Below, in pieces: positions 25,806-60,800 of a stretch of DNA of 64,000 nucleotides. This DNA comes from Watersipora subatra (lineage: Eukaryota; Bryozoa; Gymnolaemata; Cheilostomatida; Watersiporidae). The position numbers and the translations under genes were made by a program. Under the pieces are notes generated by a model that saw only the letters and a program-made list of their open reading frames with translations, had not been told where the DNA came from and made no database searches. Each line of letters starts with the position of its first letter. Position 1 is the first letter of the stretch. The DNA lies in the NCBI RefSeq assembly GCF_963576615.1, contig NC_088710.1:75587019-75651018 (forward strand), written 5' to 3'.

Positions 25806-26104
25806 AGAGCAGGAGGGCTGAGCAGAGGGGGCTGACCAGAGGTGGCTGAGCAGAGGTGGCTGAGCAGAGGTGGCTGAGCAGAGGTGGCTGAGCAGAGGGG
25901 GCTGAGCAGAGGGGTCTGAGCAGAGGGGCTGAGCAGAGGTGGCTGAGCAGAGGGGGCTGAGCAGAGGGGGCTGAGCAAAGGGGGCTAGGCAGAGGAGGAG
26001 GGGTGAGCAGAGGGGACGAAGCAGAGGGGGCTGAGCAGAGGTGGCTGAGCAAAGGGGGCTGAGCAGAGGGGGCTGGGCAGAGGGGGCTGAGCAGAGGTGG
26101 CTGG
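25806..26104. repeat. 14-bp G/A-rich minisatellite in duplication copy 1, about 21 copies
   Basis: Unit CTGAGCAGAGGTGG/CTGAGCAGAGGGGG. The plus strand has almost no T outside CTG or GTGG, so strand asymmetry is strong. Minus-strand frames (SAPSAQPPLLSPLC repeats) are repeat products. Confidence 0.95.
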
Positions 26105-27121: not shown

Positions 27122-29452
27122 TATTGTACTATAATATAAAGATATAGGATAATCTAACTTATCAACCATAATTATTTGGCTACTTGAGACATGGCTGGGT
27201 GCAGAACAAATACAAGCTGGCTAGTGAACATGTCAATAAGACAAGGTATAGTCATTTGGAGATTCACAGAGGGCCAATGTTATAGACCCTGAGATTGAAG
27301 TACAAAGCGGAGTTTATCAACTGCAAGGATAACAACTTGAAGACGCCAGACTTGGTAGACGCTGTCTAATGTCAGTGAAGCTATTGGGAACTTACCGGCT
27401 GCTATGAAGTATTTGTGACAGAAAGAAATCCTGGTTACGCTACATCACAACAAAGAGAAGAAGCCACGATACTGGGCAACAAGAGAGCAACAGACCTTAA
27501 AATTCACTGATCTTATGTGAAAGGAGCTAACGATGTGATCAAGATAACATAATAAGAATAATAAGAATGGTAACAATGGACATGTTTAAGGCAAAGAACA
27601 TTATAACTTGATTTTTATTTATTATGCCAAATTGTAAATACTATACATGGATAGATGTTATTCTATAGAGTACAACAATTTTTAGGAAATATATCCCTAC
27701 AACATATCATCTCACCTACAAATTGATGGATTGATTTAAAAATGTAACTGCACTAACAGTGCAGTTACATTTTATTGCAGATCATAACCGCTAAATACAA
27801 TAAAGTGACTATAGTTACTAAGGTTAACATACTATTTTGCTACTAATTTTAATATGTAAGGCACTTATATATAAAATTTTGACGATTTTTACCAGAGAAT
27901 GTTTGCATTATATAATTACTATGGTTTCTATTAACCCCTACATATGATTTTTTTACCATATAATGCCAACCCTGGAACGAATTAAGATCGTATCCTGAGG
28001 GTGCACTGTACAGAGTTGAGTGAGAACTCAGGGAGAAAGTGAGAGCAGTTTCAGTTTTTGAGATGTGACCATCGGCAATACATGCAGATGTCATGACTAC
28101 AGTACCAACTGCCAGTCAAGAAGCAGTGTGTTGGTTAAATTTATGAAGTAGCAGCAAAGGAAACAATTTGCACTAAAATTTTGTGAACTATATTTTTAAA
28201 CTAAAAATATTTTTAAACTATGCAAACATGGTTTTGAATGTAACTGACCAACCTTCAATGGTCAAGAAGTCTGGAAAGACAGAATTAGTGATGAATTAAC
28301 AGCCTTATCAAAGACTGATTAGTGCTCACTCGCTCCACACAACCAATAATACTGGATAATAACTAAAAGCCTTAGTTAGTTATTACAGTATGTCCATAGC
28401 CAAATAGGCTACTGGTATAGGATGGGTTGCTTTCATATAAACTTTGCTGTAAGAACTTGGATACACAAATGCTGAAATAAAACTGGTTCGTGGAAGTTGC
28501 ACTAGCGAATACTCACCAGCAAATAACATTACAGATTTTATAGTGGCTAGCAGATCAGATAGTGCATATATTGAGCATTAAAAACCACTCGTAATCCAAG
28601 ATAACATACAGTGTAGGTGTCATTTATTACAATCGTGTCTACAATTATCAGTAATGTAACAGAGTGATTCACCCATGAAGATTGTTCGTAGCTTCTCGCA
28701 TGTTTGCTCTACAATATGCAACGTAGGCCTAAATATCATGGCGGTGACCATTATAAAAAAATCATAACTTTGCATCCATAAGTAGGCTACCTTAAGTATG
28801 CCTATATTGATGTGGGGCCACGCAGAACAGCAGTACTTTCCATTGTAAGACCACCCTTGATGATAAGAGTATGTATATAATGAATGTCTTTAACCATATC
28901 TGCTGCTGTCTTTATGATGCTAGTCTTATAAAGCATCTAGAAATGTGTTGTCTTTCATGTTTGAGTTTTAAAGTACAGCAAATCTCAGTCATTTCTAAAG
29001 ATTTAACCCTGTGCTGTCGGCATTGAACTATTGACTGCTCATCATCAATTGGGTATCCATTTGCAAACAGCTAAGGAATAACTCCTTATCAGGTAACATA
29101 AACAAATGCTTTATATAAACTTCACTCATGTATTAGTAGTGGTAACAAACTAAATTTCAATATTGTCCATTTCAAATTGTAAAGGATAAAATATGTAAAC
29201 ATTATTCTTTCAAATGTTAATTATGTAATTAAATTGTAATTAAAAGTAATTATGTATTTAAAAGTATTGTTTTGTTTTTGTTCAGCCTGCAGTTAATGTT
29301 TAGTGTAATAAACATTTAGGAATTGTAGGTATATTGTTTATTATATTAGAATTTGATTGATGGACATCTATATCTAAAAAACAGTACTGACTGAGGAACA
29401 TAAGACTTTAGCCCTTCAGCAATGAATTTACAACAAACAACAAGGTAGAGCA

Positions 29453-29850
29453 GGAGGGCTGAGCAGAGGGGGCTGAGCAGAGGTGGCTGAGCAGAGGGGA
29501 CTGAGCAGAGGTGGCTGAGCAGAGGAGGGCTGAGCAGAGGGGGCTGAGCAGAGGGGGCTGAGCAGAGGGGGCTGAGCAGAGGGGGCTGAGCAAAGGAGGC
29601 TAGGCAGAGGAGGAGGGGTGAGCAGAGGGGACGAAGAAGAGGTGGCTGAGCAGAGGCGGCTGAGCAGAGGAGGCTGAGCAGAGGGGGGCTGAGCAGAGGG
29701 GGCTGAGCAAAGGGGGCTAGGCAGAGGAGGAGGGGTGAGCAGAGGGGACGAAGCAGAGGGGGCTGAGCAGAGGTGGCTGAGCAAAGGAGGCTGAGCAGAG
29801 GTGGCCGAGCAGGAAGCTGAGCAGAGGGGGCTGAGCAGAGGGGGCTGGCT
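29453..29850. repeat. 14-bp G/A-rich minisatellite in duplication copy 2, about 28 copies
   Basis: Same unit as at 25806, longer and with an internally duplicated block around the GGCTAGGCAGAGGAGGAGG variant (29607 and 29717), showing expansion after the segmental duplication. Confidence 0.95.
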
Positions 29851-30869: not shown

Positions 30870-32372
30870 TATTGTACTATAATATAAAGATATAGGATAA
30901 TCTAACTTATCAACCATAATTATTTGGCTACTTGAGACATGGCTGGGTGCAGAACAAATACAAGCTGGCTAGTGAACATGTCAATAAGACAAGGTATAGT
31001 CATTTGGAGATTCACAGAGGGCCAATGTTATAAACCCTGAGATTGAGGTACAAAGTGGAGTTTATCAACTGCAAGGATAAAAACTTGAAGACGCCAGACT
31101 TGGTAGACGCTGCCTGATGTCAGTGAAGCTATTGGGAACTTACCGGCTGCTATGAAGTATTTGTGACAGAAAGAAATCCTGGTTATGCTACATCACAACA
31201 AAGAGAAGAAGCCACGATACTGGGCAACAAGAGAGCAACAGACCTTAAAACTTACTGATCTTATGTGAAAGGAGCTAACGATGTGATCAAGGTAACATAA
31301 TAAGAATGGTAACAATGGACATGTTTAAGGCAAAGAACATTATAACTTGATTTTTATTTATTATGCTAAATTGTAAATACTATACATGGATAGATGTTAT
31401 TCTATAGAGTACAACAATTTTTAGGAAATATATCCCTACAACATATCATCTCACCTACAAATTGATGGATTGATTTAAAAATGTAACTGCACTAACAGTG
31501 CAGTTACATTTTATTGCAGATCATAACCGCTAAATACAATAAAGTGACTATAGTTACTAAGGTTAACATACTATTTTGCTACTAATTTTAATATGTAAGG
31601 CACTTATATATAAAATTTTGACGATTTTTACCAGAGAATGTTTGCATTATATAATTACTATGGTTTCTATTAACCCCTACATATGATTTTTTTACCATAT
31701 AATGCCAACCCTGGAACGAATTAAGATCGTATCCTGAGGGTGCACTGTACAGAGTTGAGTGAGAACTCAGGGAGAAAGTGAGAGCAGTTTCAGTTTTTGA
31801 GAATGTGGCCATCGGCAATACATGCAGATGTCATGACTACAGTACCAACTGCCAGTCAAGAGGCAGTGTGTTGGTTAAATTTATGAAGTAGCAGCAAACG
31901 AAACAATTTGCACTAAAATTTTGTGAACTATATTTTTAAACTAAAAATATTTTTAAACTATGCAAACATGGTTTTGAATGTAACTGACCAACCTTCAATG
32001 ATCCAGAAGTCTGGAAAGACAGGATTAGTGATGATTTAACAGTCTTATCAAAGACTGATTAGTGCTCACTCGCTCCACACAACCAATAATACTGGATAAT
32101 AACTAAAAGCCTTAGTTATTACAGTATGTCCATAGCCAAATAGGCTAATGGTATAGGATGGGTTGCTTTCGTATAAACTTTGCTGTAAGAACTTGGATAC
32201 ACAAATGCTGAAATAAAACTGGTTCGTGGAAATTGCACTAGCGAATACCCACCAGCAAATAACATTACAGATTTTATAGTGGCTGGCAGATCAGATAGTG
32301 CATATGTTGAGCATTAAAAACCACTCGTAATCCAAGATAACATACGGTGTAGGTGTCATTTATCACAATAGT

Positions 32373-35296: not shown

Positions 35297-38275
35297 TCCT
35301 TGTTGATTTCCTCAGCTCTTCAACCAGTGATACGTTGATATCAGGCTAGGGCCCCTAACCTGGGGTATCTAACACCTTTCTCAGTATCCTCGCTGATCCT
35401 AGTAGGGCACAGAATTGTACTCTATCTACTTTCTTCTCTATGTCAGCAGCTGCATTTGCTCGTGCAGGTTTGCCACTGCTCCCAGTGCTCTCACGATGAT
35501 TGGTACTACCGACACTGATGTTTTCCATATTCTTCTTATCTCTCTTTCCAGGTCATGATACTTCTCCATTTTCTCTTTCTCTGTTATCCTTGCATCTCCT
35601 GGCATGGCTATGTTGATGATCCATGTGTGGTTGATCTCTTTGTCTTGCACAACGATGTCTGGTGTGCGTGCTAGTATGATTTGGTCTGCTTGGGTAAAAA
35701 ATTTGCACAGTATCTTTGCTTTGTAGTTTTCTGTCACACTCTCCGCCTGATGCTCGTACAAATTCCTCTTGTGATCTAAATCATATCGCTTGCACGGATT
35801 CCAATGAATCAGTTGTGCAACCTTGTTGTGTCGTTTCTTATACTCGGTCTGTGCCATTTTCGAACACTCGCTGAGTATATGGAAGACCGTATCTTCCCTT
35901 TCGTTACACATTCTGCACAATGATGTTCCTACTTGTTTCTCTGTATGAACTTTCTTCCATTATGTTGGTACTGCCTGATCCTGTGCCGCAGTGAGTAGTC
36001 CTTCTGTTTCCTTTTTCATAAAAATCCTTTTTCATTTGTGAGCTTTCTTTGTGTCTGTTTTGTCTGCGATTTTGGTGTATTGTCCATGTAGTGCTTTGTT
36101 TTTCCATTCATGTTGTTTCTCTTCTGCCTTGGTGTTTTTATAATCTTGCTTGGTCTCTTCCTTTTCAAAACTCTTCAGATATTTGTTGAGTCCTTTGTTT
36201 TTACATTTCATGTAGTCGGATAATCCGTGTTCCTCTGTCCGGAAGGTTTCCTCCAAATTTTTCAGTCCTCTCCCTCCTTCACTTCTTGTCTGATGCAGTC
36301 TTGCCGCATTAGCCCTTGGGTGTAGTGCTCTGTTCATGGTCATCAATTTTTTTGTTTTCCTATCTATCCCCTGCAATTCTTCCTTTGTTCAGTCAAGTAT
36401 TCCTCCAGAGTATCCAAGGACGGCAGTCGCTCATGTGTTTATCGCTTTGGTTACATTTCCTTCATTCAGCTTGAATTCCAGAAGTAGTCCAGTTCTCCTG
36501 TACAATTCCTTCTTCACTTTGTTCTTTCATTTTTATGTCATCTGCTTCCAGCACCCCTAGGTACTTATAGTCCTGTTCTCCGAGATCTTTCATAATTTGT
36601 CCATCAGATAGCCATATGCCTTCATCCAGCTCACGTTTACCTGTCTTCATAACCACTGTCGCACACTTCTGTATTTCGAACTTCATCCATATGTTTTGGG
36701 TGAAAACCCTCACTGTCTGTACGAGTGACTCCAGCTCATTTTTGTTTTTTTTCCGTATAGTTTCAGGTCATCCATATAGAGCAAGTGGTTTATCCTACCT
36801 GACTGTGGTCTGGCAAAAGAATACCCTTGCCTTGTCTCCCGCAGTTTCACGCTCAAAGAAATCAGACACTATGAACAACAGCGGTGACTAAGAATCTCCT
36901 TAGAATATCCCTCTCTTGATGTCTACATTCGTGAGTGTGCGTCCTCAGCACTCCAAGTTGGTATTCCACTTGCTCATGCTCTCCCTGTGAAATTTCCAAG
37001 TCCTCTTCTGTACCCCCACCATTCCCAGTGCCTCAATAATTTACAAGTGTAGCACTAGATCATACGCTTTCTGGTAGTCAATCTAGCCCATGGCTAATCC
37101 AATTTTCCGGCTCTTACAGTCCTTCGGTATCACCTTGTCCTGCATCAAATGGTCTTTGGTTCCTTTGTATCCTGATCTTCATCTCTTCTGCTCTTCTCCT
37201 ATGAAATCATTTTCCTCCAAGTGTCTGTAGATTTCTCCAACCACCATAGTGGTCAACAGCTTCCAAACAATCGGTAAGCAGGTAATAGGTCTATAGTTTC
37301 CTGGTGCTCTTTATTTGGTCTTGTCCTTCTGAATAAGAACAGTTCTTTCAGTTGTTATCCAGATGGGTGTCTGTGCTGTCTGCCGGCAGTCATTCAGGCA
37401 TAATACAAGCTTCCTGTGCAGGTTGGTCAGGTTTTAAATTCAAAAACCTTGATTAGAATCTGGGCCTGGAGCTTTCCCGTTTGGTAGTTTCATTAATGTA
37501 CTTTTCAGCATGTTCTCTGTGATTAGTATCTCATCCTGGTGTCTTCTTCCTAGTTTGTTCTTTACTCGCTCAATCCATGGTGTTGTTCTGTCATGTTCGG
37601 TCGCATGTCTCCAAATCCCTGTCTAGAACTCCTTAGATTCCTTTTCATTTGGTATTTCGTTCTTTCGATTCTCCTTATTTTGTACATCATCGTAGAATCT
37701 CTTTTGGTTGTTTTCAAACATTCTGTTTTGTTGGTATTGTTCCAATCTATCATCATATCTTATGATCTTTGCCGCTGTCGCTATCAGTCTTTGTTTCAGG
37801 TCTTCTAATTTGAGTTGGTATCCTTTGCGTTTGACATTGTGTTTCACTTCCATCTTTTTTTCTGAATCTGTTATTGTGTGATTTGTTTCTTGCTTGTACT
37901 ACTCTGCTTATAATGTCTTTTCTTAGTTCTGTCACCCTTCCTTTTAGTCTCCTGCTCCGTGGTTGTTTATCTTTCTTCTCACTCTGGTTCCTTACCAGCT
38001 TCTTTGTGACAATTGCCGCACTAATGTAGAATGTATCATTTAGTTCGGTGATGTTATAAATCGACGCATGTTTATTACTTCATTGATCTTCCGTAGTTCA
38101 TCCAGTATCTTTCTTCTGTCTATCTGTCTGATGTTAGACAGCTTTTCTCTCCCCATCTGCAGCCTTTCTCTCATTGCCTTGCTTTCTTCAGCTAATTCCC
38201 TCTTTTCATTTGGTAATCTCTCTGCCGTGGTTTTATCTGGTCTCACTTGGTGTTCGAGTTCCCTCCTTCCACCAA
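35297..38275 (-). pseudogene. Decayed LINE (non-LTR retrotransposon), copy A, RT plus zinc knuckle plus RLE-like C terminus
   Basis: In minus-strand order: a charged coiled-coil-like N part (38275-37620), a reverse transcriptase with GKAPGPD near 37465-37485, IDYQKAYDLV near 37040-37080 (preceded by a stop where the family has Trp), RGIF-GDS near 36890-36920 and LYMDDLK at about 36760-36780; then LTMNRALHPRANAARL, KNKALHGQYTKIADK, a CRMCNEREDTVFHILSEC zinc knuckle (35917-35864) and a restriction-like endonuclease-type PD...D region. Stops and frameshifts (for instance at the T-run near 36745) leave no intact frame. Members with CCHC plus PD-(D/E)XK belong to the R2/R4/NeSL/CRE group of LINEs. 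Truncated at the 5' end. Confidence 0.9.
36767..36778 (-). other. Reverse transcriptase YMDD active-site motif
   Basis: Minus strand encodes LYMDDLK; the two aspartates bind metal in reverse transcriptases. Intact here although the surrounding gene is broken. Confidence 0.92.
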
Positions 38276-38303: not shown

Positions 38304-38805
38304 CCTTGTTGATTTCCTCAGCTCTTCAGCTGGTGACATGCTGGTATCGGGCTAAGGCCCCTTACCTGGGATATCCAACACCTTTCTCAGTATTCTCGCT
38401 GACCCTAGTAGGGCAGAAAATTGTACTCTATCTATTTCCTTCTTCTCTATGTCAGCAGCTGCATTTGCTCATGCAGGTTTGCCACTGCTCTCAGTGTTCC
38501 CACGATGATTGGTATTACCGTCACTGATGTTTTCCATATTTTTCTTATCTCTCTTGCCAGGTCATGATATTTCTCCATTTTCTCTTTCTCTGTTATCCTT
38601 GCATCTCCTGGCATGGCTATGTTGATGATCCATGTGTGGTTGATCTCTTTGTGTTGCACAACGATGTCTGGTGTGCGTGCTGGTATGATTTGGTCTGTTT
38701 GTATAAAAAAGTTGCACAGTATCTTTGCTTTGTAGTTTTCTGTCAACTCTCCGCCTGATGCTCATACCAAATTCTCTTGTGATCTAATCCATACCGCTTG
38801 CAAAG
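38304..38805 (-). pseudogene. LINE copy B, 3' fragment of the same family
   Basis: Close copy of 35297-35800, ending with the same 3' sequence; the frame TENYKAKILC, TPDIVVQ, WIINIAMPGDARITEKEK is shared. It is 5'-truncated at about 38805, and its 3' tail (a GAT/AAT microsatellite at about 38274-38304) abuts the 5' end of copy A, so the two lie head to tail. Confidence 0.9.
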
Positions 38806-39894
38806 ATTTCTTTTCAATATAATCTGTCGAATAAGATTACTGGCGCAAACGATGAATGTGTAGCGTTTAAAAGCGTAAAAGTTTAAAACCATAGATATAT
38901 AAACCTAGATTGGCCAATAGGGAAAAAGCCTGTCAGACATAAATAACATGACATTATGTCATTGTATTGTACCTAATGCTTGACTGCACTGTTGTTTACA
39001 ATAGAGCTAATGAGGAGAAGGTGACAAAATCACATTTATTTTCACCTAAAAACCTTCTTGGATACATAATCCAGTAAGCCAAAGCGATTCTGTGATAATA
39101 TCTGATAACCACCATAGATTAAAACTATAAAAGTTATGAAATGTAGCACACAAATCATGAGCCATCAGGGCTTTATTTGCCACCCCCTCTCCCCCTTCTC
39201 TCTTTTCGCCTTTCCTTTTCTCCCAAAAAGAAGTGGGAAGGGGAAAAGAGAGAAGAGGGAAAGGAGAGGGGGGGGCAAATAGCCCACCCACCCGAAGAGC
39301 CAGACCCTGGCTAGGTAAAAGACTAATATCATGCTGAACTAAACATGACTAAATATGATGAGCATGTGAAGTTTTGATCTGATCAGGGAAGTGGAATCAG
39401 TGGCTTTCTTAGCTAGAGCTGGAATGAGACCAAGGAATGCAGGGTCGGGCCAGACTCAGGGTCAGCAATGAGGGCCAAATCAAGTGGGACCGGGTCAGCA
39501 TGCGTGATTTTTTTATTCATTTAAGGTTAAGAGATAGTTCTATTACAGCCTAATGTTGTGACATCAATAACCTAAGATAAAAGAACCCATTATCACACCA
39601 ATCATTATATTTTGTGGCTTGGTTAATAGATGCAATTTACAATTTATGGCTAGACATTGGTGGATCAATGCTATTCAATGAGTGATAGATTAATGGCATG
39701 ATTTGGCTAGTGTTTTTATTACAGATTTTATTTTCAACTGCTATTATAATCAACAAGAAGAGATTAATTGAGGAATACTTTGCAAATATAGAAATGGAAA
39801 ACCGAGCATAGTGGAAAGCAAAAATCCATCACTTCCCTAAAACTTCTGGTATTAGTGAAAGAAACTAAAAATAAAATAAATTTGCTGAATTGAA

Positions 39895-40080
39895 GGTTCT
39901 TAGACACGCTTTTAAGTTCCTCAGGATGCCTTCGTTGTAAATGCCTCAATAGTATTGAGGTGGACCCTTCTTTGTAGCTTAACTTGCTTTCGCATAATAT
40001 ACAAATAACTTGGTATTTCCCTTTTTTGACCCGGCTTCTTCATGAACTCCCAGACCACCGACATGCTGATTATTTCTTGC
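39895..40080 (-). pseudogene. BED-type zinc finger fragment
   Basis: Minus strand reads SVVWEFMKKPGQK, then after a one-base frameshift in the A-run (about 40020) GKYQVICILCESKLSYKEG and STSILLRHLQRRHPEEL. The C-x2-C...H-x5-H arrangement with the W/F start is a BED finger, usually at the N terminus of hAT-type transposases. It lies downstream of the P-type fragment on the same strand, so it is either a nested hAT remnant or an unusual domain partner. Confidence 0.75.
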
Positions 40081-40379
40081 CGAAAAACATTGTGAAACCT
40101 ATAGTCCAAAGACTATGGCCGCAGACGTAAAAATATAGTCTGAACTCACCTTGTTTTATTTCGCCTGGTCCTTTCGCGCTAAGACCATACGCGACTCTAT
40201 TTCAATCGCACTTAAAAAGCGATATACAATCGCTCTCATTTAGCCATAAATCTACCCGTGTCTTTGTATAAGAAGACCCGAGGGTCGGGTGCCCTGACGA
40301 GGGCACCTCTGACCCGGTGGGTCAAGACCAGACGAGCTACCAGTGCCCGCTCTATTCTTAGCTTCATAATGTGCCCTAA

Positions 40380-40791
40380 TCGAAATATATCTCTTTGCTA
40401 TCTCACGAGCTAGGCAACTAGCATGAAGATTACACTTAAACAATAGCATGATGCTGAACCTCAGCAACCTCTCCATGGTGGCAATTAGTGCTAGCCTGGG
40501 AAAGTTTGTTACCAACCCAGCACTGCTAATCAACACTCTCATCGCTTTCTCACTGTGGTTGCAAACCTCAATCACCACAGGCGAAGACAAAGTCAAGCCA
40601 CCACAATTCTTAACTGTGATTAGGGAATTCCTTGCTTGGTTGACATCATAGTTGGTAACATCCACGATGCTAGTGATACAATCATTACACTTCAGCTTTA
40701 GTGACCGAGATACATAGCCTGTTGTATAATAATCATTCTGTCTCATTTTTGCATACTGTCTCATACTTGCATACTCATCATATTTAGTCAT
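40380..40791 (-). pseudogene. P/THAP9-type transposase C-terminal fragment
   Basis: Minus-strand frame with YYTTGYVSRSLKLKCNDC, then KNCGGLTLSSPVVIEVCNHSEKA and, about 70 residues later, LAREIAKRYISIRAHYEAK. This order (Y-x-x-GYV-x-R...CxxC, a GGL block with E-K, and a final K-x-x-IR-H-Y) is what I recall for P-element/THAP9-like transposase C termini. The catalytic N-terminal part is absent; the frame starts inside the inverted arm, implying internal deletion. Confidence 0.7.
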
Positions 40792-41180
40792 GTTTAGTTC
40801 AGAATGATATTAGTCTATTTACCTAGCCAGGGTCTGGCTCTTCGGGTGGGTGGGCTATTTGCACCCCCTCTCCTTTCCCTCTTCTCTCTTTTCCCCTTCT
40901 CCCTTCCCACTTCTTCTTGGGAGAAGAAGGAAGGCGAAAAGAGAGAAGGGGGGTAGGAGAAGGGGTGACAAATAAAGCCCTGATGGCTCATGATTTGTGT
41001 GCAACATTTCATAACTTTTATAGTTTTAATCTATGGTGGTTATCAGATATTATCACAGAATTGCTTTGGCTTACTGGATTATGTATCCAAGAAGGTTTTT
41101 TGTGTGAAAATAAATGTGATTTTGTCACCTTCTCCTCATTAGCTCCATTGTAAACAACAGTGCAGCCAAGCAATAGGTAC

Positions 41181-41357
41181 ATACCTGCCAACTCTCACGC
41201 ATTGGGCGTGAGACTCACGCAATCGCCCCAAAGAAAAAATGAAAATGCGTGAGACTTTTGCCCCAATTTCCACAATTTTATATATACTATTATTGATACA
41301 TCAATTGCCCCAAAACCAAATCTCACGCATTGCCCCACTCTTGGGTTGGCAGGTCTG
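41181..41357. mobile_element. MITE nested in the right arm of the P-like element
   Basis: Ends ACCTGCCAAC / GTTGGCAGGT, flanked by TAGGTAC on both sides (41174-41180 and 41360-41366; 9 bp with one mismatch if extended). The left arm of the P-like element shows the empty site at about 38980. Internal CTCACGCATTGGGC repeats occur in both orientations. Confidence 0.85.
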
Positions 41358-45681: not shown

Positions 45682-45871
45682 ATGGCAACTAAAAAACGAG
45701 AAGCTCTGTCTGGAGATGCCAAATCTAAAGGGAAAACTGGCGGACAACCTTTAAAGAAACAGCCATCTTCTTCATCAACAAAATATGCGTCTACCACAAA
45801 GAAAAAAGCAGCTGAAGAGATGGTGGACATACGATCCAAGGTTTTTTGGTGTCTGGCTGTCGGTATTCTAT
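45682..45871 (+). CDS. DPY19L1-like: DPY19-like exon 1 (start codon, N-terminal tail, first membrane segment)
   Basis: Begins [14 protein letters not shown], a basic Lys/Ser/Thr-rich tail expected on the cytosolic side, then the hydrophobic stretch [10 protein letters not shown]. It ends in phase 1 at the donor TAT|GTAAGT. The reading frame stays open for about 120 bases into intron 1, but family homology stops at the donor. Confidence 0.9.
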
Positions 45872-48800
45872 GTAAGTTTTTGTCACGGCAAGACCATAAT
45901 ATCTTACATTTTTATTTGAGAACTTGCTGGCTTGTGTTAAACGTTTTACATCTTTTTTTCTCTTACTACTATTATGCACCCTTTTCCATATAGGCTCCCC
46001 ATTTTGGGGCAGTTCATCTACTGATTTCCTGCTTATCTTGCTGTAAAACTTGTCTTTATTTCATGATGTTGTTTTTATTGTAGCTATTGTTATCAGCCTG
46101 GCTCACAAAAGTCATGTTTTTGCACTGTTCGAAGGGGATAAACATTTTTCGCATTTATCCAATCTTGAGCGAGAAATGGCATTCAGAACAGAGATGGTGA
46201 GTAGCTAAGTTGCTGATGCCACTATATGTCATTTAGCTATTTTAAAGCCTAACTGTTTGGTTATTCTAAAGGATGCCATTCTGGGATATTTGGCTGATTA
46301 CACTAGCTAGAGAATATGCTTCACTCATTTTGCAAGGAAAAGCAGAACATCTTAAAATTGCCTGAAATTGGTTTACAACATATTTTCTAAAATTGATACA
46401 AAAATGCTTGCAGCTAATTATAACATGCCAATTGAAACTTAACTGTTAGCTTAATGAACGTATTCGTTTGAGTTTGCACCGAGTTGTACTGCAAAGTGTT
46501 TTGTTAACTTAAATACATTAAAGTTTCATAGTTAGCCAACAAATTCTATTGAGTGTGCCATAATAAGTATATAGCTTTTATTTTAAGTGATGCAGTAGCA
46601 ATGGTGGAACAGTAATCAAATTTTGTGTATATTTTGCAGGGCCTCTACTACTCCTATTTTAAAACTATAATTCATGCGCCGTCATTTCTGGAAGGCATGC
46701 ATGAAATCACACAAGATAATGTCACTGAGTACCCTGACACTATCAACACCTTGAAGCGTTTCAACCTCTATCCAGAGGTACGAACTGTGAACTCTCACTG
46801 TTTTTAAAATGCTTTGACAGATTGCTTGTTGAGTCTTAAAATCACTATCTAAACTCAAGCAACAGTTTTGAAAATTGTTTGGAAGTCGCTATTTATAATA
46901 TTCTTTAGGGTAACAAGTGATCCTTTCCTCATTGCTTTGTGCAGTATGTGTACACCAGGAAATGCTTGCTACGTGTGCACTGCAAACGTGTGCATTGCAG
47001 ACGTGTCCTGTTGCAACTGGATTAAATCCCCAATGATTAATGTCTTACCATGTCACTGTGGAAGCTTCAGCATAGCTCCACGCATCATTACTCATGCTCT
47101 CGCTTCATGCTTTACCTTTGAATTAATGCTGATTTTGAGGTGTGTGCAAGAAGTGGAGTTATCTTTCCATTGAGTTCATTCATTGACATGGTTCTGGTAT
47201 ATGTTTTAAAGCCTTGAAACATGGAATCTTGTTTGCTAATCCATTTAAACCTTTTATATGGGTTAGGGTTTTGTCGGCTCTTCAAGCATTTTGCCATTCC
47301 AGACCTTATTGTGAATTTATTAAAATGTGCCAAAAACACACAAACTGTTCGATCTTGTAAATAGTTGTCAGGTTACCATGACAAGAAAGAAACTTATAGC
47401 ATTTTGAATATTCTACTCTAGACATAGACTCTGTAGTGTGTCAACAAGAAAAAAGATATCCCAGTTTTTTATAGTGGTCACAAACTCACAATGTGCTTAC
47501 CTGATTTATTCACTGTCACTAAAGCACAAGATAAAATAGGGCTGACGAGGATCTCACTCATCGGGCAGTAAAATATGATATGCTTTTCTTTTCACTAGGT
47601 TATTCTTGGTGCTGCGTACCGATTTTACATAGATATGGCTGACCGCAACGACTGGCGTGTAAAGATCTGCTATCAGGTTAATAGGGGAGAAGGAAAGTCA
47701 CCAGTCCCTAGCTGTGAAGGTGTGTGACAGTTTTATGCTGACCAGTACCTAGCTATGAAAGTGTGTGACAGGTTTATACTGAATCAGTACCTAACTGTGA
47801 ATGTATGTGACAAGTCTATGTTGAACCAGTACCTAACTGTGAATGTGTGTGACAGGTTTATGCTGAACCAGTACCTAACTGTGAAGGTATGTGACAGGTC
47901 TATGCTGAACCAGTACCTAACTGTGAAGGTATGTGACAGGTCTATGCTGAACCAGTATCTAACTGTGAAGGTATGTGACAGGTCTATGCTGAACCAGTAC
48001 CTAACTGTGAAGGTGTGTGACAGGTCTATGCTGAACCAGTACCTAACTGTGAAGGTATGTGACAGGTCTATGCTGAACCAGTACCTAACTGTGAAGGTAT
48101 GTGACAGGTCTATGTTGAACCAGTACCTAACTGTGAAGGTATGTGACAGGTCTATGCTGAACCAGTACCTAACTGTGAAGGTATGTGACAGGTCTATGCT
48201 GAACCAGTACCCAACTGTGAATGTGTGTGACAGGTCTATGCTGAACCAGTACCTAACTGTGAAGGTATATGACAGGTCTATGCTGAACCAGTACCTAGCT
48301 GTGAGAGAGTGTGCGTTGAGAAGGGGTGCCATGAGAGCTTTGCAACATTTTTGTATAAATAACCTTTTCACATGTTGATTCGTGTTAAAGCCAAGCAGAT
48401 TTTTCTTCTATGATTTGCCCTCAATACAATGAGATGTCCAAATGCTACCGGTCAAGCATTTTTTCTGCTGCGCATGCAATACTTTCTGTAAGCAAATATA
48501 TTGAAAATTACAAAAAATGAGCTATTTTTAATGTTTTCATATTTTCAGAGCAACTAGAAATAGGAGATTGCATGTGTGCTGCGTCTGTAATACTTAAAGA
48601 CATATAACATTAAAACATAACCAAATATATCAACATATATACAATATATGTTAGATGTTATACATATATACAATATACTCAGATGTTATATCTGAGTGCT
48701 GTGAGAAGTAAAAAAGAGGCAGCTCAACTTACCTGGAGTGAAAGATGACATCTGCTCAGACATAAGGTGATACACGAGCTGCTCTCTCGCATCACCTAGC

Positions 48801-51800
48801 TGCTGTCAAACACTTTACAATGTTGCTATTGAGAGTCTAGTGTGTGTGGGCATAAGACAATATTGCTCTGGTAGTTTACTATATTCTAAGATGTTATGCA
48901 GCACAAGCATGGTATGTTATGCAGCACAGCATGGTATGCTATGCAGCACAGCATGGTATGTTATGCACCACAGCATGGTATGCTATGCAGCACAGCATGG
49001 TATGTTATGCAGCATACCATGGTATGTTATGTTGTACTACCTGTATAATATATGAAAATATATAAAAGTCCTCTATATACCTGACAGTACACTGTTAGTA
49101 TACTGACAGTACATTGTTAGTATACTGTCAGTATACTGACAGTGTACCCAAGTTACTAATCGATCCCTACATTTGACTGTATATAGACCACACATACACA
49201 CCGTGTAAATGACAGTATGTACTAATCACTTGTACACTCTGTACACATGGCAGTGTACGCGAGTCTCGCAGACTGTATACATAATTGTACACATTAGCTA
49301 GCTGTATACACTACATTCATCATGACATACGCTAGTCAGTTGTATTTTGTTGGATGCTTCCAGATTCCCTTCCCCACCTTTTCGGGCTCGCTGGGGCATT
49401 ATAAGTAATTACGGTATTTACAGCTATCAGTATCCATAAACTTGAAGTCATCTTCTCTACACGTCGCTTTTGGCTATGAACTTTTCACCTGGTTTCTGTC
49501 GCTTACAAAAATAAAATAAGCCAAAACTGAGATTTGTGTTGAAGGTCTCGGGGAGCCGACATACTTCTATGTAACAGCAGTTATGTTTCTCAATGGATTT
49601 ATGATGGGAGCCTATTTCCTTTTCGGCACCTTTCTGAGGTCAGTCTTGTGGTTTCTCTCTATCGCTTACTTCGCCTTCTTTTCCTGCTGCATTTTAACAT
49701 CTGATTTTATATCTTTGTTTGGTTCATGCCATGCTTCTGCCAAAATTGCTTTTCACTACCACTTTTGATATTGCCTATTTCGCTGCTCCTGTCATGTGAT
49801 GTCACAGAGTCGACAATAATGATGGTATTACAAAAGAAGGTTTCAAACTCCAAGCAGTTAAGCCACTTAATAAAATTAGATGTCGAAGGAAGTACTACTC
49901 TATAACTCTGGTAGATTAATAGACTTAGATATACATGTATATTTAGCTTAATAGTCTTAGACATCTACATGTATTGTTGGAGTACTCTATGACAGCACTA
50001 ATTCGTCTGTTATTCTATATAAGACCTTAGCTATGGCACTGCAAGTATTTGCTCTATAATCTTGTCAAGTCTGTAGAAATAGAACAATGATTTAAAATTT
50101 TCCAATTTCATTAAGATACGACTCAAAAATAATATGATTTCGTTTGTTAGACTAATTTAGTTCAATTCTTCTGCTTGATCTGAATCATAAAACTGCTGTG
50201 GCCTTTTTCTAATGTGGCCAATCAGCTATGGGCTAGAGAGGTCATTGCGTATTAGACTATATTGAGTTGGCTTTGAGCCAGAGAGATGATTATGTGCTCC
50301 GCGTTTATTTATCATGAAGAGAATTACAGCCTCTGAACAGTACTCTTACAGCCTCTGAACAGTACTCTTACAGTATGCTGAACAGTACTCTTACAGTATG
50401 CTGAACAGTACTCTTACAGTATGCTGAACGGTACTCTTACAGCCTCTGAACAGTACTCTTACAGTATGCTGAACAGTACTCTTACAGTATGCTGAACGGT
50501 ACTCTTACAGCCTCTGAACAGTACTCTTACAGTATGCTGAACAGTACTCTTACAGTATGCTGAACGGTGCTTGTTAAAACTAAACTCTCCAAAAGACTAA
50601 AAATGACCTAATAATGACCTCGCTTTAAAGTTACTGCTTTTATACTCTCTGAGGCCCTAAGGCATGGCCTGAGCAAACTCTACACATTTTGTGATAATGA
50701 GACAAATAAGTTTATTTTAGTTCAGAGTAAGTACATTACGGATTAACCTAATGAGTGTGTTTAAACTCGTAGACTCGTAGCACAGGACAGTAACATAAGT
50801 ATATGGGTGGTTGTACTTTTTGCTGTATAGCCACCTACCAGCTATGCTGGCTACAGATTGGTATGCAGTTGTATTACTCCTCCACCTTTTCTATACCTCA
50901 AGTACTTCTGAAATTATGTTTGAAGTAAACCAATGAACTAATTTGAGCTAATAATACTACTTGAAATATAATCATGGGTGCTTCGCTATCAAACTCAGTT
51001 TATAAGGTCCACATCTCTAAAGAATTAGTCTATTATGCTCCCTCTCTATTTGCGCAAGATATACTATATCAATCCATATACTTATATAGATCTCCAAGTT
51101 TATTTGTTCTTCGGTTCGTTTGGCTATAGCTATTAAAACCGTGGAATTAAAAGCTCGCATTCGGCTGGATTTGAGCTCATGAAGATTGCAACCGCATGTT
51201 TGTAGACCAATTCTCTAACCACAAGTCTACGAAGGCTCTTACGATTACATAGCTCTTATTATACCGGTATATGTACTCTGTATCTTTTTTGCGATTGCAC
51301 ACGCTAAATGTGCACTTTTTATCATTAATTAATATATCTTTTGCATTTGTTATTTGAAATTTTTTACAAGTTAAATTTTTGCTGCCATTACAAATGGCAG
51401 CAAAAATTTCAAATTTTGAAATTTCTGTGCCATTTGAAAAACTGTGCCATTTGAAAAACTGTGCCATTTCAAATGTGTCGCTACACTTCTGTTTCTGATT
51501 TTTCCTAACGTTTGATTGCTAGATCTCTAAAATCGAAATTCTTTTCACGTGGACAATTGTATTATATCGAGTAGGAATAGCCTCTTTCATAGAATAGAAT
51601 ACATTCTTTCTCTGCTCGGTCAGACAAAGTACCAGACAAAGACAGTCCGATATCTCATTTTTACATTTGTACCATTATCGAGAGGTACCAGTATCATCGT
51701 ATTCAAAGTTTTGATGGATAGCTCCTGCTGGAACAGTAACCTTTTTATACACATACACTTCTATACAATAATTATTGTTATTAGTAATTCATCAACATAT

Positions 51801-54800
51801 TTAAGATTTTTATTTTGTTTTCTCAGCTCGTAATGATTGTATCATTGCCAAATCATTTTTCATTGTAATCGTAGCAAAACAGATTTTATTTAGCCATTAC
51901 TTGCTAATTATTTCAGATTTACATTTAAACACTTTACAGTTGTTTTATTTTTTTTTCTTACTTCACTTGAACTGCGCAAAACACATTTCTCATGATATGA
52001 AGTTTAAAAGTTAGAACGTTAACTGTTGTTATTTGTGGAATAAAAATAACTTTTGTGTGCAAAGGCTTATGTTATCTGGGCAATGCCGGGCGTTCCACTA
52101 GGCTATATTTATAAATCTCAAAGTTTGTGTGTCTGTGTGTCTGTGTGTGTGCACTTAAATATGTCCAGCTATAGCTATTCAAATCTTGGAATGAAGAATT
52201 CGTATCGCGGAAGATTTGATCTCGGAACCCCCCATTCCCCAGACAATATGCTAAACCATGGAACTACATGAGATTGATAGATTCACTGGGCGATATATGT
52301 TACTATATGGGTGAAAATATGCTACCGCTCTCCGTTATGGTACAACGTCATTATATGTATTATTAAGAGCCGTAGATAACTAGCTTGCTTAAATTAGCCA
52401 TTGACAATGTGTCAGGCTAATGGCAAGTGGCATTGTTTATAAGCTGAGTTTATAAGTGTGGCTTTGCAATCACTGCTTATAAGTTGATTTTTAATACCCG
52501 TGCAACGCGGTGCATTCCACTAGTATTATAATATTTTAGAAGTCAGCAAAGTTCCTTGCTTTTCACTCTTTAATTTTGTTCCGTAAAACTTACTCAGATG
52601 CAATGAAAATGAACCATGCTAAGTGTCATATTTTATACTCCACTAGAACTAGGAAAACAGCGTCACCTTTTGATTATTTACCATATACTCGTATATTACC
52701 TATTGCATGGGCAGCAGTGAAAATGGGTAACTGTTAGCATTAATGGATCAATGTGCAATAGTGAGAGAAAAGAGTGTAAATCTAAATACAATTTTTAGAG
52801 AAATCATGAAAGTAAGTTCTTGTGTCTAAGAGTCTTGTGACAGACCTTGAGTATCTAGGAGTTTTGTGACAGACCTTGAGTATCTAGGAGTCTTGTGACA
52901 GACCTTGAGTATCAAGGAGTCTTGTGACAGACATTGAGTATCTAGGAGTCTTGTGACAGACCTTGAGTATCTAGGAGTCTTGTGTCAGACATTGAGTATC
53001 TAGGAGTCTTGTGTCAGACCTTGAGTATCTAGGAGTCTTGTGACAGACCTTGAGTATCTAGGAGTCTTGTGACAGACCTTGAGTATTTAGGAGTCTTGTG
53101 TCAGACATTGAGTATCTAGGAGTCTTGTGTCAGACCTTGAGTATCTAGGAGTCTTGTAACAGACCTTGAGTATCTAGGAGTCTTGTGACAGACCTTGAGT
53201 ATCTAGGAGCCTTGTGTCAGACACTGAGTATCTAGGAGTCTTGTGACAGACCTTGAGTATCTAGGAGTCTTGTGACAGACCTTGAGTATCTAGGAGTCTT
53301 GTGACATACATTGAGTATCTAGGAGTCTTGTGATAGACCTTGAGTATCTAGGAGTCTTGTGTCAGACCTTGAGTATCTAGGAGTCTTGTGACAGACATTG
53401 AGTATCTAGGAGTCTTGTGTCAGACATTGAGTATCTAGCAGTCTGTGACAGACCTTGAGTATCTAGGAGTCTTGTGACAGACCTTGAGTATCTAGGAGTC
53501 TTGTGTCAGACCTTGAGTATCTAGGAGTCTTGTGTCAGACCTTGAGTATCTAGGAGTCTTGTGACAGACCTTGAGTATCTAGGAGTCTTGTGACAGACCT
53601 TGAGTATCTAGGAGTCTTGTGCCAGACCTTGAGTATCTAGGAGTCTTGTGTCAGACCTTGAGTATCTAGGAGTTTGGACTAGTTACAACATGACGAATAA
53701 ATGGTAGTATTTCAGTGCTGATTGTTAGTGGTTCTGCCTCCACAATTAGTCGCTGCGAAGTCAAATGTGCCAAGGTAAAAACATGGAGACAATGTACTAG
53801 TTGGTTAGTGCTTAACTTGAAATGAATAGCCCGGTAGTAGGTGCTAACACTCACTATAATCCTTGACTGTGTATATCAAACCATGTAGTATAACACGCAT
53901 AACTTAGCAACTTATGTACTGGCACACTGTAGCATAGACATGAGTATTTGATGTCTAATCTTGGTCTTTCCTATTGCTCGTTGCGCTGAGGGAATGTTTG
54001 TCTAACGCTAAAGCAAACTCGTGTTTCATATATTCCAGCGGCAGCATGTTCGGTGGCTTGCTGACAGTCCTCTGTTATTTCTTCAACCACGGAGAGTGTA
54101 CGCGTGTCATGTGGACTCCTCCTCTTCGTGAAAGCTTCGCATTTCCAATGCTGGTTGTTCAAATGTTATATCTCTCCTACATGCTCAAGTGAGTTCCCTA
54201 GCCTGAGATATTAAGTATTATACCTCTGCTATATACTGAAGTGAGTTCCTTAGCCTGAGATACTAAATATTATATCTTTTCTATATGCTTACACGAGTTC
54301 CTTAGGGAGACTACATGTAACTAATGCTAGCAATTTTAGTAAAATGTCACCAAATTTGTAGCATATTCTTACACCTGTGTCTCTCTATGTGTTCATGAAG
54401 AGTACGAGAGAAACAGCCAATATCTGTTGGGGTTGATCAAAGGAGGGTCTAGATGATTGGGACATATAATCTGAATATATTATTCCATTTGCGATAGATA
54501 GATTGCCTTTGCCTCTCCTATTATGGCCGATGGAATGTCTGCTCCATCCTTCTTGTTTCATAGGTGTTTGTGTGTTTCAGGAAAAGAACCCCAACTTTCA
54601 AAGACTCCATCTGTCTTGCTCTTCTCATTGTTGGGTTCATGCTGCCATGGCAGGTGAGCTTTCACAACAAACGTTCACTGTGTATTTGCCTAACCATGTG
54701 TTTAGTACAGACCTCTATGCTGCTCTAAGTCTATCAGCCGCTCTAAGTCTATCAGCTCCTCTAAGTCTATCAGCCCCTCTAAGTCTATCAGCCGCTCTAA

Positions 54801-57800
54801 GTCTATCTGCCGCTCCAAGTCAATCAGCCGCTCTAAGTCTTTTAGTTACTGTGTTTGAGTCTGTTACTAGCTAGAATAACTTTTCTGTTTTTATCTGTAG
54901 TTTGCTCAATTCGCTCTGATGACACAACTTGTTGCGGTTCTTGGATGTTTCGTGCTTGGCTACATAAACTTTCTACGAATGAAACTCATCCTGATTGGTC
55001 ACTCGGTGAGTAGAATATTTTATCCCATCTAAAACACAGCAGGAAAATACCTGCAGTGTTTTATCTTAACCATACATGTATTTATATAATTGTTTGCTCA
55101 TTAGGTAGCATTTGATTGTTTATGATACAAACTTACTCACCTGGAGTTGTCTGCTCACTAGGGACCTCTAATTTCTGTAAATGTTGTTTGTAACAAATAA
55201 TTTTCAGCGATTTGTTATATCACACTTTGTATTAATCAACAGTCAAGATTCTGTTCTAAAGTTGTTGGTCTAAATTAAACTATCGAGCTAATATTTACAT
55301 CCTTGAAGTTTGAAAGTTTCTTAAATTGTTCCAAAATATGCCAAAATGACATAAATCACATGTATTTAACACAATAATGATCAGAGTTGTTATATGAAAT
55401 TATCATGAATATTAAATGTTCATTGCTATATTGTTGTATTGATGTAATGCACTAGTTTCATCGCATTATTGTTGGAAGCTATAATTGGTCTCCATATAAA
55501 ATTATATACGACTATATGAATGTTTGTTTTCTACCTGATATTTATACTCAAGTCTTTGTACCTGATATTTATATCTAAGTCTTTGTACCTGATATTTATA
55601 TCTGAGTCTTTGTACCTGATATTTATATCTAAGTCTTTGTACCTGATATTTATATCTGAGTCTTTGTACCTGATATTTATATCTAAGTCTTAGTACCTGA
55701 TATTTATATCTGAGTCTTTCTACCTGATATTTATATCTAAGTCTTTGTACCTGATATTTATATCTAAGTCTTTGTACCTGATATTTATATCTGAGTCTTT
55801 GTACCTGATATTTATATCTGAGTCTTTGTACCTGATATTTATATCTGAGTCTTTGTACCTGATATTTATATCTAAGTCTTTGTACCTGATATTTATATCT
55901 GAGTCTTTCTACTTGATATTTATATCTAAGTCTTTGTACCTGATATTTATATCTAAGTCTTTGTACCTGATATTTATATCTAAGTCTTTGTACCTGATAT
56001 TTATATCTGAGTCTTTGTACCTGATATTTATATCTAAGTCTTAGTACCTGATATTTATATCTGAGTCTTTGTACCTGATATTTATACTCAAGTCTTTGTA
56101 CCTGATATTTATAACTAAGTCTTTGTACCTGATATTTATATCTGAGTCTTTGTACCTGATATTTATATCTAAGTCTTAGTACCTGATATTTATATCTGAG
56201 TCTTTCTACCTGATATTTATATCTAAGTCTTTGTACCTGATATTTATATCTAAGTCTTTGTACCTGATATTTATATCTGAGTCTTTGTACCTGATATTTA
56301 TATCTGAGTCTTTGTACCTGATATTTATATCTGAGTCTTTGTACCTGATATTTATATCTAAGTCTTTGTACCTGATATTTATATCTGAGTCTTTCTACTT
56401 GATATTTATATCTAAGTCTTTGTACCTGATATTTATATCTAAGTCTTTGTACCTGATATTTATATCTAAGTCTTTGTACCTGATATTTATATCTGAGTCT
56501 TTGTACCTGATATTTATATCTAAGTCTTAGTACCTGATATTTATATCTGAGTCTTTGTACCTGATATTTATACTCAAGTCTTTGTACCTGATATTTATAT
56601 CTAAGTCTTTGTACCTGATATTTATATCTGAGTCTTTGTACCTGATATTTATATCTAAGTCTTTGTACCTGATATTTATATCTGAGTCTTTGTACCTGAT
56701 ATTTATATCTAAGTCTTAGTACCTGATATTTATATCTGAGTCTTTCTACCTGATATTTATATCTAAGTCTTTGTACCTGATATTTATATCTAAGTCTTTG
56801 TACCTGATATTTATATCTGAGTCTTTGTACCTGATATTTATATCTGAGTCTTTGTACCTGATATTTATATCTGAGTCTTTGTACCTGATATTTATATCTA
56901 AGTCTTTGTACCTGATATTTATATCTGAGTCTTTCTACCTGATATTTATATCTAAGTCTTTGTACCTGATATTTATATCTAAGTCTTTGTACCTGATATT
57001 TATATCTAAGTCTTTGTACCTGATATTTATATCTGAGTCTTTGTACCTGATATTTATATCTAAGTCTTAGTACCTGATATTTATATCTGAGTCTTTGTAC
57101 CTGATATTTATACTCAAGTCTTTGTACCTGATATTTATATCTAAGTCTTTGTACCTGATATTTATACTCAAGTCTTTGTACCTGATATTTATATCTAAGT
57201 CTTTGTACCTGATATTTATATCTAAGTCTTTGTACCTGATATTTATATCTGAGTCTTTGTACCTGATATTTATACTCAAGTCTTTGTACCTGATATTTAT
57301 ATCTAAGTCTTTGTACCTGATATTTATATCTGAGTCTTTGTACCTGATATTTATATCTAAGTCTTTGTACCTGATATTTATATCTGAGTCTTTGTACCTG
57401 ATATTTATACTCAAGTCTTTGTACCTGATATTTATATCTAAGTCTTTGTACCTGATATTTATATCTAAGTCTTTGTACCTGATATTTATATCTGAGTCTT
57501 TGTACCTGATATTTATACTCAAGTCTTTGTACCTGATATTTATATCTAAGTCTTTGTACCTGATATTTATATCTAAGTCTTTGTACCTGATATTTATATC
57601 TGAGTCTTTGTACCTGATATTTATATCTAAGTCTTTGTACCTGATATTTATATCTGAGTCTTTGTACCTGATATTTATATCTAAGTCTTTGTACCTGATA
57701 TTTATATCTGAGTCTTTGTACCTGATATTTATATCTAAGTCTTAGTACCTGATATTTATATCTGAGTCTTTGTACCTGATATTTATATCTAAGTCTTTGT

Positions 57801-60800
57801 ACCTGATATTTATATCTGAGTCTTTCTACCTGATATTTATATCTGAGTCTTTGTACCTGATATTTATATCTGAGTCTTTGTACCTGATATTTATATCTGA
57901 GTCTTTGTACCTGATATTTATATCTGAGTCTTTGTACCTGATATTTATACTCAAGTCTTTGTACCTGATATTTATATCTGAGTCTTTGTACCTGATATTT
58001 ATATCTAAGTCTTTGTACCTGATATTTATACTCAAGTCTTTGTACCTGATATTTATATCTAAGTCTTTGTACCTGATATTTATATCTGAGTCTTTGTACC
58101 TGATATTTATATCTAAGTCTTTGTACCTGATATTTATACTCAAGTCTTTGTACCTGATATTTATACTCAAGTCTTTGTACCTGATATTTATATCTGAGTC
58201 TTTGTACCTGATATTTATACTCAAGTCTTTGTACCTGATATTTATATCTGAGTCTTTGTACCTGATATTTATACTCAAGTCTTTGTACCTGATATTTATA
58301 TCTGAGTCTTTGTACCTGATATTTATATCTGAGTCTTTGTACCTGATATTTATATCTAAGTCTTTGTACCTGATATTTATACTCAAGTCTTTGTACCTGA
58401 TATTTATACTCAAGTCTTTGTACCTGATATTTATATCTAAGTCTTTGTACCTGATATTTATATCTGAGTCTTTGTACCTGATATTTATATCTAAGTCTTT
58501 GTACCTGATATTTATATCTGAGTCTTCCTACCTGATATTTATATCTGAGTCTTTGTACCTGATATTTATATCTGAGTCTTTGTACCTGATATTTATATCT
58601 GAGTCTTTGTACCTGATATTTATATCTAAGTCTTTGTACCTGATATTTATACTCAAGTCTTTGTACCTGATATTTATATCTGAGTCTTTGTACCTGATAT
58701 TTATACTCAAGTCTTTGTACCTGATATTTATATCTGAGTCTTTGTACCTGATATTTATACTCAAGTCTTTGTACCTGATATTTATACTCAAGTCTTTGTA
58801 CCTGATATTTATATCTAAGTCTTTGTACCTGATATTTATATCTGAGTCTTTGTACCTGATATTTATATCTAAGTCTTTGTACCTGATATTTATATCTGAG
58901 TCTTTCTACCTGATATTTATATCTGAGTCTTTGTACCTGATATTTATATCTGAGTCTTTGTACCTGATATTTATATCTAAGTCTTTGTACCTGATATTTA
59001 TATCTGAGTCTTTCTACCTGATATTTATATCTGAGTCTTTGTACCTGATACCTGATATTTATATCTGAGTCTTTGTACCTGATATTTATATCTAAGTCTT
59101 TGTACCTGATATTTATACTCAAGTCTTTGTACCTGATATTTATATCTGAGTCTTTCTACCTGATATTTATATCTGAGTCTTTGTACCTGATATTTATATC
59201 TGAGTCTTTGTACCTGATATTTATATCTAAGTCTTTGTACCTGATATTTATATCTGAGTCTTTCTACCTGATATTTATATCTGAGTCTTTGTACCTGATA
59301 TTTATATCTGAGTCTTTGTACCTGATATTTATATCTAAGTCTTTGTACCTGATATTTATACTCAAGTCTTTGTACCTGATATTTATACTCAAGTCTTTGT
59401 ACCTGATATTTATTTATATCCAAGTCTTTGTACCTGATATTTATATCTGAGTCTTTGTACCTGATATTTATATCTAAGTCTTTGTACCTGATATTTATAT
59501 CTGAGTCTTTCTACCTGATATTTATATCTGAGTCTTTGTACCTGATATTTATATCTGAGTCTTTGTACCTGATATTTATATCTAAGTCTTTGTACCTGAT
59601 ATTTATATCTGAGTCTTTCTACCTGATATTTATATCTGAGTCTTTGTACCTGATACCTGATATTTATATCCGAGTCTTTGTACCTGATATTTATATCTGA
59701 GTCTTTGTACCTGATATTTATATCTGAGTCTTTGTACCTGATATTTATACTCAAGTCTTTGTACCTGATATTTATATCTAAGTCTTTGTACCTGATATTT
59801 ATATCTAAGTCTTTGTACCTGATATTTATACTCAAGTCTTTGTACCTGATATTTATACTCAAGTCTTTGTACCTGATATTTATACTCAAGTCTTTGTACC
59901 TGATATTTATATCTGAGTCTTTCTACCTGATATTTATATCTGAGTCTTTGTACCTGATATTTATATCTGAGTCTTTGTACCTGATATTTATATCTGAGTC
60001 TTTGTACCTGATATTTATATCTAAGTCTTTGTACCTGATATTTATATCTGAGTCTTTCTACCTGATATTTATATCTGAGTCTTTGTACCTGATATTTATA
60101 TCTGAGTCTTTGTACCTGATATTTATATCTGAGTCTTTGTACCTGATATTTATATCTAAGTCTTTGTACCTGATATTTATATCTAAGTCTTTGTACCTGA
60201 TATTTATATCTGAGTCTTTCTACCTGATATTTATATCTGAGTCTTTGTACCTGATATTTATATCTAAGTCTTTACCTGATATTTATATCTAAGTCTTTGT
60301 ACCTGATATTTATATCTAAGTCTTTGTACCTGATATTCATACTCAAGTCTTTGTACCTGATATTTATATCTAAGTCTTTGTACCTGATATTTATATCTAA
60401 GTCTTTGTACCTGATATTTATATCTAAGTCTTTGTACCTGATATCTATACTCAAGTCTTTGTACCTGATATCTATATCTAAGTCTTCACCCCTGAGTTTT
60501 ATACTACTTGTATATCTAGATTTTCTGTGTTATTTGTAGATGGGCCTTTTCATCAGCTTTCTGATGCTCTTTGGTAATGAGATGCTTCTCTCATCATTTT
60601 ATGCCTCTTGCATCCTTTCTGTCTATGTGAGTATATCTTTGCGTTACAACTATGTTACTATCTCAGTAATCTAATGCCTTGGTGTCTATTCTCTGAGATT
60701 GTGGAGACTTCCATTTATGAAGAAGTCTCTATGCATGCTCTAGCTTTGCACTCTTACATCACTAGTTGATCCTGCTATTTGACGGAGTTCTTCGCCACAA

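Follow-up and report, generated by a model that had tools for sequence, protein, structure and literature searches.

A Minisatellite over the Exon 4 Donor of DPY19 in the Bryozoan Watersipora subatra, Probably a Mirage outside Lancelets

The donor splice site of coding exon 4 in the DPY19 C-mannosyltransferase gene of Watersipora subatra is part of a minisatellite whose 42-base unit joins the end of the exon with the beginning of the intron, so the whole junction is repeated. It is likely that this junction-spanning array is a mirage (a structure of the kind described in lancelets) grown from a duplication of the donor; it is probably functionless, and the first donor is most likely still the one spliced. 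The window referred to below is the whole stretch of DNA analysed (64,000 nucleotides of contig NC_088710.1), position 1 being its first letter; a slash within a motif marks the splice junction.

The DPY19 Locus and the End of Exon 4

The gene lies on the plus strand; its first eight modelled coding exons fall within 45682..55005 of the window, and the remainder lies beyond it. The gene model, in which the phases are consistent, comprises the following exons, of which those bounding intron 4 are described separately:

45682-45871, 46084-46196, 46640-46777, 47599-47719, plus strand: DPY19 coding exons 1-4
49545-49638, 54039-54188, 54581-54653, 54901-55005, plus strand: DPY19 coding exons 5-8
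47599..47719, plus strand: exon 4, 121 nt, entered in phase 0 and left in phase 1, its last 20 bases being the exonic part of the repeat unit
49545..49638, plus strand: exon 5, with the acceptor TTGAAG/ lacking an adjoining pyrimidine tract

Exons 2-6 encode a 192-residue part of the conceptual protein, which matches the Pfam family Dpy19 (E 9e-84) and, in the same 192 residues, C. elegans dpy-19 (PDB 7zlg; E 2.6e-76), while exons 1, 7, and 8 are supported by open frame, phase, and splice signals. A genome-wide search of the same assembly for Dpy19 returned eight matches, all eight at this locus. It is the sole DPY19 gene detected in the genome, hence its splicing presumably works.

The exon 4/5 junction, PVPSCE/GLGEP, gives an ungapped alignment with C. 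elegans PVESCEGIGNP, and the sole gap in the alignment with C. elegans DPY-19 is a single residue just upstream of PVPSCE; homology speaks for the first donor as the one yielding the protein. If exon 4 ended elsewhere, e.g., at CAG/GTTAAT (47677), which is a plausible donor by eye, the array would be wholly intronic. Such an end is extremely improbable: the 14 residues at issue are homologous to C. elegans DPY-19, one gap aside, and the donor at 47677 stands in phase 0, yet both candidate acceptors of exon 5 (AG ending at 49544 or 49520) require phase 1.

As to the exon 5 acceptor itself, the 20 bases before its AG contain 40% pyrimidines, the lowest value among the seven introns (window 49500-49545). 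An alternative AG 24 nt upstream (ending at 49520) would insert eight residues, AKTEICVE, in frame.

Anatomy of the Exon 4 Donor Array

TRF delimits the array at 47700-48304 with a period of 42, 14.4 copies, 93% matches, and a score of 1021, and alignment of the exon 4 donor region with the 500 bases downstream gives a score of 64, which was reached by none of 200 shuffles (maximum 33). The minisatellite of about 14 copies that the preliminary description had placed at this donor is thereby borne out; the real donor and the unit boundaries that it had recognized (end of exon 4 plus start of intron 4) also hold up, the unit being measured here as the 20 terminal bases of the exon plus the 22 initial bases of the intron. 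The exon's own 20 bases are ACCAGTCCCTAGCTGTGAAG. The elements of the array are as follows:

47700..48304, plus strand: minisatellite over the exon 4 donor, 42-base unit ACCAGTACCTAACTGTGAAG/GTATGTGACAGGTCTATGCTGA, 14.4 copies
47720..47727, plus strand: true donor GTGTGTGA, with an in-frame TGA (47725-47727) just within the intron, the first in-frame stop after exon 4
47761, 47803, and 47845 (47761..47846), plus strand: donors of copies 2-4, all without G at position -1
47887..48266, every 42 bases, plus strand: donors of copies 5-14, GAAG/GT in nine of the ten

The first copy measures 41 bases; the recurrence every 42 bases, as described earlier, applies from the second copy onward and fails for the first spacing. 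Owing to this shorter first copy, use of any later donor would shift the intron phase from 1 to 0, besides taking in the TGA at 47725, and the earlier statement that this codon ends the product of any later donor agrees with its confirmed frame.

The GT of the donor is kept in 14 of the 15 register positions; among these 14 copies, 10 show GAAG/GT and 8 show GTATGT, the latter in keeping with the "many" reported before. Changes from the consensus number 6, 6, 4, and 3 in copies 1-4, 0 or 1 in copies 5-12, 3 in copy 13, and 1 in copy 14. The GT-bearing copies comprise five equal to the consensus, four one base off, and five off by three to six, with private variants among them. High divergence in the first four copies is as expected where the edges of an array escape homogenisation.

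Tandem arrays are error-prone in assembly, and the repeat number of the lancelet PGBD5 array differs between two genome versions (PMC3902484); an artefactual array, or a wrong copy number in the assembled one, has to be considered for these reasons. We judge it very unlikely. The copies differ from each other and carry private variants, and the assembly is of chromosome scale (784 Mb in 239 contigs, the eleven large ones of 46-79 Mb), which makes the existence of the array likely, the exact copy number not being secured thereby.

Choice among the Competing Donors

The array would have arisen when a tandem duplication took in the exon 4 donor of DPY19, expansion and homogenisation within the intron following later. 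Under exon definition, the exon 4 donor would pair with the upstream acceptor across the exon and the nearest donor would win. Exon definition should apply here, since exon 4 is short (121 nt) and lies between long introns (821 nt for intron 3 and 1825 nt for intron 4). A human survey combined with minigenes reports that exon definition selects the donor closest to the acceptor across the exon (PMC9225289). In those minigenes, built for exon definition with two identical donors 52 nt apart and flanking introns of 365 nt, the upstream donor was used exclusively; when both were weakened, the preference for the upstream one persisted in the small and medium constructs, and in the larger-exon ones the exon was mostly skipped (PMC9225289).

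The donors of the array were compared by their pairing energy with the 5' end of U1, computed with a program that may shift the register, which makes low values rough. The true donor pairs at -7.0 kcal/mol, as does copy 8; the other seven of copies 5-12 (copies 5-7 and 9-12) reach -7.6 kcal/mol. Copies 2, 3, 4, and 13 pair weakly (-4.2, -2.4, -1.9, and -1.9 kcal/mol, rough values) because the base at position -1 is A or T in them and no longer G. This loss concerns 4 of the 13 later copies, including the three nearest to the exon, and the notion of about 14 equivalent donors put forward in the preliminary description is, therefore, too strong. With the three nearest decoys weakened, a full-strength donor is not met again until 47887, 167 bases further on. 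If four of the 13 decoys lost the G at -1 at random, the three nearest would all be hit with a probability of 0.014, a post hoc figure, and the weakness of the nearest decoys could be due to selection or to plain edge divergence. Whatever its origin, it would also favour the first donor. Concealment of the decoys by RNA structure was rejected as an explanation: predicted accessibility gives the first donor no advantage (0.40, against 0.26-0.59 for the others).

Against the use of the first donor stands the slightly better U1 pairing of seven of copies 5-12. If these later donors, mainly copies 5-12, were used in an appreciable share of transcripts, exon 4 would acquire a poison extension that lowers DPY19 output in step with array length. 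The advantage of copies 5-7 and 9-12 (-7.6 vs. -7.0 kcal/mol) is consistent with this possibility, and the title of a paper on the human 6-16 minisatellite speaks of multiple splice donor sites being provided. Donor strength is a strong determinant in the human data of PMC9225289, where the donor with the higher predicted strength is dominant in 86% of events; this is the main reason for doubting first-donor use. The poison extension is nevertheless unlikely, since the exon would have to reach 288 nt for copy 5 and 666 nt for copy 14, and the exon-definition minigenes were spliced only at the upstream of their two identical donors (PMC9225289).

Nearly exclusive use of the first donor is thus the most likely outcome. 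Transcripts made with a later donor would carry an early stop, and their removal is expected. The suggestion that the array is a natural test of the role of position in donor choice is fair; the question itself has, however, already been addressed in minigenes with identical donors, and the kind of structure is known (PMC9225289, PMC3087553, PMC3902484).

A Second Donor Duplication and the Density of Arrays

A further donor of the same gene, absent from the preliminary description and new here, is duplicated as well:

54161..54305, plus strand: donor-spanning tandem repeat at exon 6, period 52, 2.8 copies (TRF)

The exon 6 donor, GTGAGT, lies at 54189 and recurs at 54241, whereas the GT has been lost at the corresponding site of the third copy (54293); an in-frame TGA (54190-54192) directly follows the true donor. 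Copies 1 and 2 are equal in 21 of 28 exonic and 22 of 24 intronic bases. The donor region has an alignment score of 61, higher than in all 200 shuffles (maximum 23); among the 15 DPY19 junctions tested by alignment against shuffles, the remaining 13 gave scores within those of their shuffles. In the five more DPY19 matches past exon 8, whose exon ends are approximate, being taken from the matches, no array was found within 60 nt.

Junctions do not seem to be preferred sites. Under random placement of the gene's own arrays, 2.9 of 14 DPY19 junctions would be expected to be crossed, and 2 are crossed, i.e., there is no junction enrichment in this gene; the array lies on the exon 4 donor because arrays are dense in this gene and not because junctions attract them. 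Arrays with a period of at least 10 cover 25.8% of the window, and 14 interior 10-kb samples of the same contig show a median cover of 5.0% (mean 14.6%, one sample being wholly tandem). Among the arrays of the gene are one of 27-base units (183 copies over nearly 5 kb, window 55528-60486), situated between DPY19 exons, and, further along, another of 23/46 bases extending over nearly 4.8 kb.

The end of the window is about 272 kb from the end of the 75.9-Mb contig. A subterminal position was considered as the cause of the array density and set aside for want of a simple trend: the four successive 10-kb stretches after the window have array covers of 63, 30, 44, and 0.4%, the fourth being nearly free of arrays, and two samples nearer the contig end have 13 and 17%. 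Another idea considered was that intron 4 arose when its own boundary was duplicated. Its donor and acceptor share TGAAG/GT, and five bases before the junction match between donor and acceptor, compared with 0-2 at the other six introns; this is too little for such a claim.

Repeated Donors at Myosin Exons

Donor duplications were also sought in a hand-picked sample of myosin exons from the same genome, comprising 60 of 75 myosin-head matches with their flanks, which stem from a restricted set of genes and are not mutually independent. The matches passed over comprise six rows on contig 4, from a cluster that seems poor in introns, as well as the six weakest rows and three others. The automatic test flagged a duplication at three donors (of 59), one acceptor (of 58), and seven intron points (of 115), and at none of the 60 exon middles. 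In this sample, donors are duplicated about as often as intron interiors (3/59 vs. 7/115), without enrichment at the junctions.

After reading, exon and intron sequence proved to be repeated together at 3 of the 60 donors. The first (L066) has an exact two-copy, 43-base repeat of the donor CAAG/GTACGT; the second (L102) has a 30-base array with units resembling the donor, which barely passed the threshold (37 vs. 36); at the third (L069), the donor is repeated in a 31-base unit found by TRF and missed by the automatic test. The repeat at L089, one of the three donors flagged automatically, begins at the first base of the intron and was left uncounted since exon sequence is not repeated there. 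At one minus-strand exon (L067), the acceptor region and some 20-25 exon bases recur about 130 bases upstream within TA-rich repeats.

Other Features of the Window and the Contigs

The sequence at 38968-41181 of the window looks like a DNA transposon. It forms a long inverted repeat with arms of 145, 85, 76, 51, and 50 nt, which show 84-98% complementarity and lie about 1.4-2 kb apart; inside it are a BED zinc-finger frame (39764-40039, minus strand) and a weak THAP9 C-terminal match below the cut-off. Related frames at 35438-35959 and 38447-38761 (minus strand) resemble the end of a LINE-type element, the former showing the zinc-binding region of a reverse transcriptase below the Pfam cut-off. 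A segmental duplication is suggested for the stretches at about 25.8-28.1 kb and 29.4-31.8 kb, because they have in common a long identical peptide (frames 27852-28115 and 31588-31830, minus strand) and arrays of the same 14-base unit (25807-26103 and 29448-29847).

The contig ends carry (TTTGGGG)n/(CCCCAAA)n, unlike the usual animal TTAGGG. These repeats were seen at 4 of 11 contig starts, one of the 11 being masked (L035, L037, L038, and L042, on contigs C1, C3, C4, and C8), and at the sole end examined (L011, contig C3), where the final 4.1 kb contain 313 TTTGGGG copies scattered between GC-rich repeats. No haemocyanin domain, which would have pointed to a mollusc, was detected, a result that does not establish its absence, and COX1 was not found in the assembly.

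Relation to Known Mirages and Donor Series

The name mirage was given to tandem repeats across exon-intron boundaries in lancelet Adh3, and such repeats were also described in globins (PMC3087553); PGBD5 was added later, with troponin C cited (PMC3902484). According to these papers, a minisatellite-like unit spans the exon-intron boundary in all of these Branchiostoma genes (Adh3, the globins BflGb6 and BflGb9, troponin C, and PGBD5); the units measure 10-160 bp, many of them carry AG/GT signals, and edge copies are unhomogenised, one lancelet mirage being reported to have its edge copies left out of homogenisation (PMC3087553, PMC3902484). RT-PCR suggested normal splicing in the lancelet globins with mirages, and the authors propose mirages as a source of new introns (PMC3087553).

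The DPY19 array resembles these structures in its make-up: each unit holds 20 exonic and 22 intronic bases about a junction set by homology, and the splice signals are kept (GT in 14 of 15 positions, AG/GT in 10 of those 14). It differs in the gene concerned and in its series of 14 GT-bearing donor copies of 42 bases; the assembly (784 Mb, 11 large contigs) also speaks against a lancelet, lancelet genomes being smaller and having 19-20 chromosomes. Probably, it is a mirage outside lancelets. The kind of structure already has precedents in lancelets (PMC3087553, PMC3902484) and, to go by a title, in one human gene; what is new is the repetition of a second DPY19 donor, that of exon 6, and of the donors at 3 of 60 sampled myosin exons. 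No mirage-like report from another phylum was found by title or abstract in a search that covered subscription papers thinly and rarely queried the word "mirage".

The human gene is 6-16 (IFI6), whose minisatellite, to go by the title of the paper, reportedly supplies multiple splice donor sites, a likeness to the DPY19 array in that a minisatellite brings several donors into a transcript. It is said to start near the end of an exon and to consist of 26 12-base units, only the first few of which are used as donors. The alternative units reportedly add codons in frame, whereas any later donor of the DPY19 array brings in the in-frame TGA at 47725.

The minigenes behind the exon-centric proximity rule are alike in offering a single exon followed by two equal donors with tens of bases between them (PMC9225289). 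They are designed and have two donors; DPY19 presents a natural series of 14 of unequal strength.

Implications

It is conceivable, although we hold the view only tentatively, that tandem repeats across splice junctions occur in this genome as a standing feature. Donors would then be duplicated repeatedly and tolerated through the exon-definition choice of the first copy, each repeat lengthening its intron, and would form a natural donor-competition series ranging from two exact copies (the L066 myosin exon) to fourteen (DPY19). As the stretch from one AG/GT donor to the next starts with GT and finishes in AG, units wrongly retained in a transcript might in principle be spliced out afterwards, giving the right product. 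Another animal genome with tandemly repeated donors at several genes would provide natural competition experiments graded in copy number, distance, and strength. Such a genome would reveal to what extent exon definition protects genes from the growth of repeats, and its repeated donors bear on the growth of introns and on possible shifts of donors.
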